In this document: positions 47,528 to 52,650 of the stretch, in pieces | How the letters are laid out: each line of letters starts with the position of its first letter | Numbering within the stretch: position 1 is the stretch's first letter | NCBI RefSeq assembly: GCF_025141935.1 | Contig: NZ_CP081120.1 | Coordinates: 1,736,001 to 1,800,000, forward strand | Length of the DNA stretch: 64,000 nt | Source of the DNA: Sulfitobacter sp. S190 | GTDB lineage: Bacteria; Pseudomonadota; Alphaproteobacteria; Rhodobacterales; Rhodobacteraceae | Reading direction: 5' to 3' | The notes under the pieces: model-generated | What the model saw: the letters and a program-made list of their open reading frames with translations, nothing else | The model's database searches: none | What the model was told of the DNA's origin: nothing | Position numbers and translations under genes: made by a program

Positions 47528-47980
47528 ATGTCGAACGACAGCGATCTCATCAAGCTCTATTCATCGCGGATTCTTGCGCTAGCGGCGGATATTCCGCATC
47601 TCGGCCGATTGGACGACCCCGATGCGACAGTAAACCGTCGCTCGCCGCTGTGCGGGTCGAGCGTGACCGTGGATGTGCGCGTGGATGGCGACCGGCTGGC
47701 CGAAATGGGTCAGGACGTGAAGGCTTGCGCGTTGGGTCAGGCAGCCGCCGCCGTCACGGCCCAAGCAGCGGTCGGCGCCGATCTGGCCCAGCTGCAAAAA
47801 GGTCGGGACCAACTGCGCGCGATGCTCAAAGGTAAGGGCGATGTGCCTGACGCGCCCTTCGCCGGGTTCGAAGTGCTGACCCCCGCGGTCGAGTACAAGA
47901 ACCGCCATGCGTCGATATTGCTGAGCATCGAGGCCCTGACCGAAGCGGTAGAGGCCGCGCAAACGGCCAAGGCCATTTAG
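47528..47980 (+). CDS. Iron-sulfur cluster scaffold-like protein (NifU/IscU N-terminal family)
   Basis: 150 residues from the ATG at 47528 behind GAGGGAAAG. The IscU-type core is recognisable: Cys42 in PLCGSSVTVDV and Cys67 in VKACALGQAAAAV correspond to two of the three cluster ligands. The third ligand position (usually HC near the end) reads NRHASILL here, with Ala in place of Cys. So it is either a divergent scaffold using another ligand or a protein that no longer builds clusters. No isc or suf genes are adjacent. Confidence 0.8.
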   Translation: MSNDSDLIKLYSSRILALAADIPHLGRLDDPDATVNRRSPLCGSSVTVDVRVDGDRLAEMGQDVKACALGQAAAAVTAQAAVGADLAQLQKGRDQLRAMLKGKGDVPDAPFAGFEVLTPAVEYKNRHASILLSIEALTEAVEAAQTAKAI

Positions 47981-48000
47981 AACCAAAATTCACATCGGGG

Positions 48001-48039
48001 AAAAAAAGACGCCGCACATTCCGTGAGGAATGGCGGCGT
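48001..48039 (-). terminator. Rho-independent terminator on the minus strand
   Basis: ACGCCGC...CATTCC (48009-48022) pairs with GGAATG...GCGGCGT (48027-48039) with a bulged A and a GTGA loop. On the minus strand it is followed by TCTTTTTTT (complement of 48001-48009). It ends the transcript of the 42-residue gene starting at 48312, leaving about 145 nt of untranslated 3' RNA. I see no gene in that stretch. Confidence 0.8.
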
Positions 48040-48183
48040 GAGGGAAGCGTTGCTCATGTGGGACCCGAGCGATTGGAGCGGGCGGGCAAGCCCTTTGGTG
48101 TCAAAGACAGGCAGAAACTGACACCGGCATCAATTTGGGACAGATGCGAAACCAATCAGCGGCATGAGAGCGCAGGCAGAAAA

Positions 48184-48312
48184 TCAGACAAGACCGGGGA
48201 GATGCAAACCAACGACCAGCATCACAACGAGTGCGGCTGCACCGGCAGCATCCTGCAGCAACGTATCGTGGGACCGCGTTGCGACAGACTTGAGCGTTTG
48301 GAAAAAGGTCAT
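48184..48312 (-). CDS. 42-residue single-span membrane peptide, putative LexA-regulated
   Basis: Too short for most gene finders. ATG at 48312 with a GGGAG ribosome site, stop TGA at 48184-48186. The N-terminal half is polar and amphipathic (MTFFQTLKSVATRSHDTLLQ). The C-terminal half is one hydrophobic helix (AAGAAALVVMLVVGLHLPGL). It has its own promoter region with GTTC repeats 58-92 bp upstream and its own terminator, which makes a real transcript likely. The layout (SOS box, tiny single-span protein) recalls Caulobacter SidA, an SOS-induced division inhibitor, but I see no clear sequence similarity. Function is inference only. Confidence 0.65.
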   Translation of the reverse strand: MTFFQTLKSVATRSHDTLLQDAAGAAALVVMLVVGLHLPGLV

Positions 48313-48369
48313 TGGTGTCTCCCGTTCTCTTGTTGCCCCTTTGTTCTCATATGATTAACGGCAGGTAAA

Positions 48370-48404
48370 GAACTTTTTAAGAACATTTGTGAACTTTTTG
48401 GAAC
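48370..48404 (-). promoter_or_regulatory. LexA-type SOS box with four tandem GTTC half-sites
   Basis: Plus-strand GAAC occurs at 48370-48373, 48381-48384, 48391-48394 and 48401-48404. The first pair has exactly the N7 spacing of the alphaproteobacterial LexA box (GTTC-N7-GTTC read on the minus strand). The others are spaced by 6. It lies between the recG stop and the 42-residue gene, oriented to control the latter. A TTAA-N7-TAAA half-match to a CtrA site abuts it at 48355-48369. Confidence 0.6.
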
Positions 48405-48412
48405 AAAAGTGG

Positions 48413-52650
<4,238 letters not shown>

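Follow-up and report, generated by a model that had tools for sequence, protein, structure and literature searches.

A short open reading frame (ORF) of 42 codons in the genome of Sulfitobacter sp. S190 lies directly beyond recG, downstream of two conserved LexA-type boxes, and is followed by a conserved structured RNA and an intrinsic terminator (Table 1). In the reading that we tentatively prefer, to which we give slightly less than an even chance, a LexA-controlled single transcript would encode a single-span, probably SidA-like division-inhibiting peptide and carry the RNA as a second module. The ORF and the selection acting on it, the conservation of the boxes, the fold of the RNA and the coupling between ORF and RNA were established by computation. 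The conserved RNA is the unexpected, newly seen part of the unit; both it and the second LexA-type box had been overlooked in a preliminary description of the same DNA. Coordinates refer to the window, i.e., the whole stretch analyzed, which comprises 64,000 nucleotides of contig NZ_CP081120.1 (positions 1,736,001 to 1,800,000, forward strand).

Table 1 Features of the small-ORF unit and its upstream neighbor, in window coordinates
Feature	Position	Strand	Description
recG	48413..50503	-	Pfam RecG domains; upstream neighbor on the same strand as the small ORF
Distal LexA-type box	48370..48384	-	GTTCTTAAAAAGTTC; 3' half overlaps the proposed -35; further GTTC half-sites to 48404, N6-spaced
Core promoter (proposed)	48343..48370	-	CTTTAC-N16-GAGAAC, by analogy with lexA TTGACA-N17-TAGAAC; 90 exact-register loci
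Proximal LexA-type box	48332..48346	-	GAACAAAGGGGCAAC, GAAC-N7-CAAC; overlaps the proposed -10 and start site
Small ORF, 42 codons	48184..48312	-	Predicted single-span membrane peptide MTFFQTLKSVATRSHDTLLQDAAGAAALVVMLVVGLHLPGLV; unannotated
Conserved structured RNA, 133 nt	48047..48179	-	Between stop codon and terminator
RNA parts, 5' to 3'			Single-stranded CUGCCUGCG, outer stem, hairpin 1 (GUCCC in loop), hairpin 2 (loop CUGCCUGUC), hairpin 3, GUCCCA bulge
Intrinsic terminator	48001..48038	-	Hairpin 48010-48038, then T run; from sequence and relatives

The small ORF is widespread in the family Rhodobacteraceae. A search with the single sequence recovered it in 144 of 198 family genomes (143 of 197 genera), and a profile of 53 members in 171 of 198, including 150 of the 174 genomes of high quality. 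Within the genus the same profile found the ORF in 56 of 58 genomes and in all 54 of high quality; one genus genome holds a second, partial match about 70 kb from the first (G635:C1:1953551-1953625, E 1.2e-6). Matches to the peptide profile in a class-level sample of 385 genomes numbered eight, of which five belong to the same family and three are marginal, partial and situated inside long frames. Outside its own family, this sample yielded no convincing peptide match; kinship is given for few of the genomes without one. The ratio pN/pS was 0.21 among 28 genus sequences, and the family-wide value of 0.57 (89 sequences) says little because pS is near saturation. The small ORF is under purifying selection, and the genus-level ratio together with the family-wide profile rules out a chance ORF or frame artefact. 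The preliminary description had proposed looking to close relatives for conservation of ORF and box, and for stop codons that would speak against a gene. The genus counts above and the retention of the GTTC-N7-GTTC box in 108 of 110 loci bear out the former, and internal stops are absent among the matches listed for family and genus.

The loci read in detail are 110 of the 144 ORF matches, the 33 weakest and one near a contig end (G166) having been omitted. In 108 of these 110 loci, the DNA upstream of the small ORF encodes the C-terminus of RecG in the same orientation. In the window, recG and then ligA, the repair genes named as neighbors in the preliminary description, lie upstream of the small ORF on its strand. 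Downstream of the window ORF are a convergent gene, whose product has a NifU_N domain, and hisI (PRA-CH); the convergent NifU-like gene recurs in 75 of the 110 loci within examined flanks of ~1 to 1.5 kb. A weak terminator-like hairpin at 48408-48422 overlaps the recG stop codon (shuffles average 0.7 such sites), so that the small ORF may form a unit of its own, apart from recG. We rejected a phage or plasmid origin, given that a single 42-residue query found no match at E 0.01 in phage and plasmid collections.

The ORF itself matches its first description in length, in its ribosome site and in the hydrophobic C-terminal half of its product. A Shine-Dalgarno-like motif precedes it in 99 of the 110 loci, and the best 17-residue hydropathy is at least 1.6 in all of them, as in the small hydrophobic one-span peptides of type I toxin systems. 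Lysine and arginine average 2.6 over residues 1-18 and do not occur over the last 20 (110 loci). Three residues (D21, G24 and L36) are invariant among the 53 members and five more (T17, L28, L32, L38 and P39) nearly so; as judged from the alignment, these conserved residues point to a specific partner and not to bulk hydrophobicity. The window peptide had zero matches in Pfam, NCBIfam and PHROG at E up to 1, and a Pfam scan of the 53 members returned one marginal match for one member (0.0095). The nearest named relatives are from Sulfitobacter.

The stretch that separates the stop codon from the terminator is the conserved structured RNA, in which relatives have CTGCCTG, CTGTCCC and stem-like segments in common. 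A terminator had been described as closing the unit; the hairpin with its T run exists, but it sits ~145 nt beyond the span first assigned to the unit. It was found by pattern in 102 of the 110 loci (one masked, seven without), and a simple terminator scan did not list the hairpin at 48001-48038. With 94 sequences of the family aligned by plain MAFFT, RNAalifold recovered the terminator only; with 31 sequences, most of them from the genus, it also recovered hairpin 1 and a portion of the outer stem. This partial yield arises because MAFFT misplaces the variable stems, for which reason sequences had to be folded singly and a covariance model built. A model built from seven genus sequences placed the RNA downstream of the ORF, on the ORF strand, in 57 of 100 loci (E 0.1). 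Two-sided (compensatory) changes occurred in all 27 modeled pairs across these 57 loci, with 277 two-sided-change cells vs. 77 in shuffles, and 89% of cells paired vs. 67% when shuffled and 26-46% when slid. The rebuilt model at E 0.01 recognized the RNA in 78 of 100 loci, and additionally in 6 of 10 other loci of the family and in all 28 loci tried from the genus. Among these last 34 sequences, a second set that has six members in common with the first seed, two-sided changes affected 23 of 27 pairs, and 92% of cells paired vs. 75% in shuffles. As the alignments were fitted to the model and the sequences are related, which favors the model, these pair counts are weighed together with the folds, arm swaps and z-scores, whose signal is moderate.

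Arm swaps, z-scores of the minimum free energy (MFE) and loop-motif counts were obtained from 96 loci. The native outer stem reached -28.8 vs. -22.6 for swapped arms, a moderate signal; it outperformed every one of the 40 swaps in just 10 of the 96 loci and ranked within the best tenth in 43. Without the terminator, MFE z-scores had a mean of -2.4, with 57 of 96 loci under -2; for the first 50 loci the mean was -2.4 on the native strand and -1.3 on the antisense strand. The loop motifs are strongly conserved, and the stems vary: of the 96 elements, 81 contain CTGTCCC and 86 contain TGCCTG, where shuffles predict 3.5 and 13.8, respectively. Hairpin 3 is apparently missing in the genus members L183, L195 and L204-L206, which retain ORF and boxes. 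A genome-wide search with stricter filters found the RNA in 79 of 198 family genomes with one match each, all 79 lying among the 171 with the small ORF, and at E 0.01 the RNA was without a match in 26 of the 110 ORF loci. Among 289 class genomes the model gave four matches, all from the same family. A known RNA family was ruled out by zero Rfam 15 matches up to E = 5 on positions 47900-48500.

The main rival to a SidA-like peptide is a TisB-like membrane toxin, i.e., an SOS-controlled type I system of the TisB/DinQ kind in which the peptide would depolarize the membrane and slow growth while a structured transcript or antisense RNA limits translation. We regard this as unlikely, at about one chance in four. 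In its favor, systems of this class combine LexA-type control with a hydrophobic peptide of ~40 residues and a structured message, and a conserved RNA in the small-ORF unit would fit post-transcriptional control. However, the idea that the RNA pairs with the ORF or the ribosome site of its transcript was rejected: native combinations performed no better than swapped ones (mean ranks of 0.51 and 0.57 in 45 of the 96 loci, where 0.5 means no signal and the outer stem gives 0.22), and neither ORF nor ribosome site showed co-evolved pairing with the RNA in this comparison. A sigma-70 scan of 47950-48450 found no promoter on either strand and hence no antisense promoter, a weak test because it also missed the proposed ORF promoter. 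The specific conserved residues of the peptide likewise speak against a toxin, and the place beside recG, together with the lack of phage or plasmid matches to the one peptide query, looks like core physiology.

Still less probable, in our estimate, is that the unit mainly serves to make the RNA, which would then be a regulatory small RNA under SOS control whose 5' part also encodes, or regulates through, the small peptide (a dual-function RNA). Conservation of loops over variable stems and the covariation in both sets of sequences would be expected of such an RNA. Yet the peptide does not appear incidental, because the ORF is under selection within the genus, each of the 79 family genomes with an RNA match carries it, and about a quarter of the ORF loci gave no RNA match. 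Nor did the single target test made provide a target: the 10-base complement of loop 2, GGACAGGCAG, was not enriched in three genomes (7, 19 and 19 matches vs. 22, 12 and 20 in backwards controls), and this complement was accordingly rejected as a signal of targets across the genome.

The promoter region bears on whether the unit belongs to the SOS response at all. The four tandem GTTC half-sites noted earlier on the ORF strand span 48404 to 48370 with spacings of N6, N6 and N7, and the last two form the exact GTTC-N7-GTTC pair at 48370-48384. A lone match to this pair is weak evidence, because there are 99 in the 3.97 Mb genome vs. 79 in the backwards control. From the genome rate, simple arithmetic predicts the motif in ~0.4 of the 110 loci, and its presence in 108, within 300 bp upstream of the start, lifts the distal box beyond chance; the promoter thus has an operator motif of the type known from the alphaproteobacterial LexA regulon. 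The proximal box (GAAC-N7-(G/C)AAC) occurs in 97 of the 110 loci, both box types together within 300 bp of the start in 96, and GTTC-N6-GTTC-N7-GTTC within the same distance in 97. In 90 loci, distal and proximal box are exactly 38 bp apart, with the consensus TGTTCtnAaAAAGTTCTTTACa-N11-anaTGAGAACAAAgnggCAACaaa. An exact GAAC-N7-GAAC replaces GAAC-N7-CAAC as the proximal box in four loci (L020, L100, L101 and L107).

Comparable motifs mark the promoters of lexA and recA. GAAC-N7-GAAC was present in 15 of 15 genus lexA loci counted (of 16 with a full-length lexA match; L111, at a short contig end, was omitted) and in 29 of 29 recA promoters (L151, in which a contig end truncates recA, was omitted). 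GTTC-N7-GATC occurred in 17 of the 29, and AATGTTC-N7-G(A/G)TC followed by GAAC-N7-GAAC in 24; AATGTTC is also found in 83 of the 110 small-ORF promoters. A matrix built only from 36 distinct lexA and recA boxes, run on both strands, gave 109 of the 110 small-ORF promoters higher scores than any of 440 background windows, which were taken from DNA upstream, mostly recG (median -10.6, 99% 1.2, maximum 7.5). The median best score of the small-ORF promoters was 16.8, and one promoter scored as background (-9.9). Only 28 of the 110 reached the lowest training score of 18.8, so that the affinity for LexA, as predicted from the matrix, may be lower here than at lexA and recA.

A further possibility, which we consider as doubtful as that of an RNA-first unit, is that another regulator binds the sites and the unit lies outside the SOS response. 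The tandem N6/N7 GTTC array with A-rich spacers is unlike the lexA boxes, and the AT-rich form of the array occurred only at the small-ORF locus among the matches listed, but the matrix scores, the AATGTTC lead and the recA-like layout of paired boxes argue for LexA. The triple GTTC array as such was rejected as a mark of a regulon, with 21 matches in 12 genomes vs. 23 in the backwards control; 12 of the matches are the small-ORF locus itself, one per genome, and the other nine lack its AT-rich sequence. Similar, G+C-richer triple arrays at G000:C1:187554, G199:C1:1063647 and G211:C8:710142 perhaps represent one shared place. The third half-site, joined here by a fourth (48391-48404), is conserved and, with its N6 spacing, a misfit to a plain LexA dimer site; this N6-spaced half-site may mean that LexA binds cooperatively or that another factor takes part. 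Control by CtrA was rejected: the TTAA-N7-TAAA site that the preliminary description had noted is present in the window but not conserved, since among 110 loci the 125 bp preceding the start contain it, on either strand, in 19 and TTAAN7TTAA in one. What stands of the SOS-induced membrane peptide originally proposed is a conserved single-span gene under LexA-type sites (108 of 110 loci), without its CtrA-like site. Overall, the predicted SOS control of the small ORF is well supported by comparative sequence.

From these features we infer LexA control in the cell, a single transcript, the topology of the peptide, its inhibition of division and a role for the RNA. The unit just 3' of recG would be repressed by LexA, whose two boxes overlap the proposed -35 and the -10/start region, and LexA would therefore block RNA polymerase. 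Upon DNA damage, self-cleavage of LexA would release repression, and one transcript of ~330 nt ending at 48001-48038 would be made. Its 42-residue peptide would enter the inner membrane with the basic N-terminus in the cytoplasm and the uncharged C-terminus outside, an orientation predicted because basic residues are found only on the N-terminal side. Once inserted, the peptide would hold up cell division until repair, as SidA does in Caulobacter; division inhibition is thus proposed as probable from the SidA analogy, the SOS-type promoter and the conserved specific residues. The 133-nt RNA, with its repeated unpaired CUGCC/CUGUCCC motifs, could be a base-pairing regulator or act on the fate of its own message. 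A broader version, in which one LexA transcript delivers a division- or membrane-arresting peptide together with a trans-acting structured RNA across most Rhodobacteraceae, seems to us unlikely, on a par with the toxin. If true, one damage signal would stop the divisome at the protein level and re-tune other messages at the RNA level.

The means by which marine Rhodobacteraceae delay division when their DNA is damaged are, to our knowledge, not settled. Because SOS-like control sites and a folded RNA are both conserved across the family, the small ORF is a good candidate for a DNA-damage brake in Sulfitobacter-like marine bacteria. It represents a widespread candidate family outside all protein and RNA family libraries searched, and combines in one unit an SOS-type peptide and a conserved RNA. 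Among the literature-search results listed, there was no report of the ORF or the RNA and no expression data set for the ORF, an absence that is not proof. A study of LexA and CtrA in D. shibae predicted LexA sites at lexA, recA, dprA and other genes, and its main text contains no mention of recG, ligA or a division inhibitor (PMC6473078). Neither recG, LexA nor SOS is mentioned in the main text of a study of small RNAs in Ruegeria pomeroyi (PMC4809877).

Among the closest known systems is SidA, which, like the peptide predicted here, is a very small SOS-controlled inner-membrane peptide of an alphaproteobacterium. SidA inhibits division through FtsW/FtsI/FtsN. Unlike SidA, the small-ORF family was found only in its own bacterial family within the samples and has a conserved RNA in its unit. 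TisB and DinQ of Escherichia coli are small toxic hydrophobic peptides under LexA that are produced from regulated transcripts. Small hydrophobic character and SOS-type control, here predicted, are shared with them, whereas the small ORF differs in its RNA module 3' of the ORF, in its fixed chromosomal place across the family and in showing no antisense RNA in a promoter scan that was blind also to the proposed ORF promoter. The recA promoter of Rhodobacter sphaeroides reportedly contains two LexA motifs, a layout of paired LexA-type boxes around the promoter that was also seen in family recA promoters. The small-ORF promoter differs from recA in that its distal GTTC-N7-GTTC lies inside a tandem array and its proximal box mostly has a CAAC half-site. 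In length, the ~40 residues of the peptide family compare with 29 in SidA of Caulobacter crescentus, according to a study that also describes DidA of the same species as a single-span, damage-induced division inhibitor of 71 residues that is SOS-independent (PMC4211646). DidA resembles the peptide, as proposed here, in its small size, its single span, its induction by DNA damage and its inhibition of division, and differs from it in its greater length and its independence of the SOS response.
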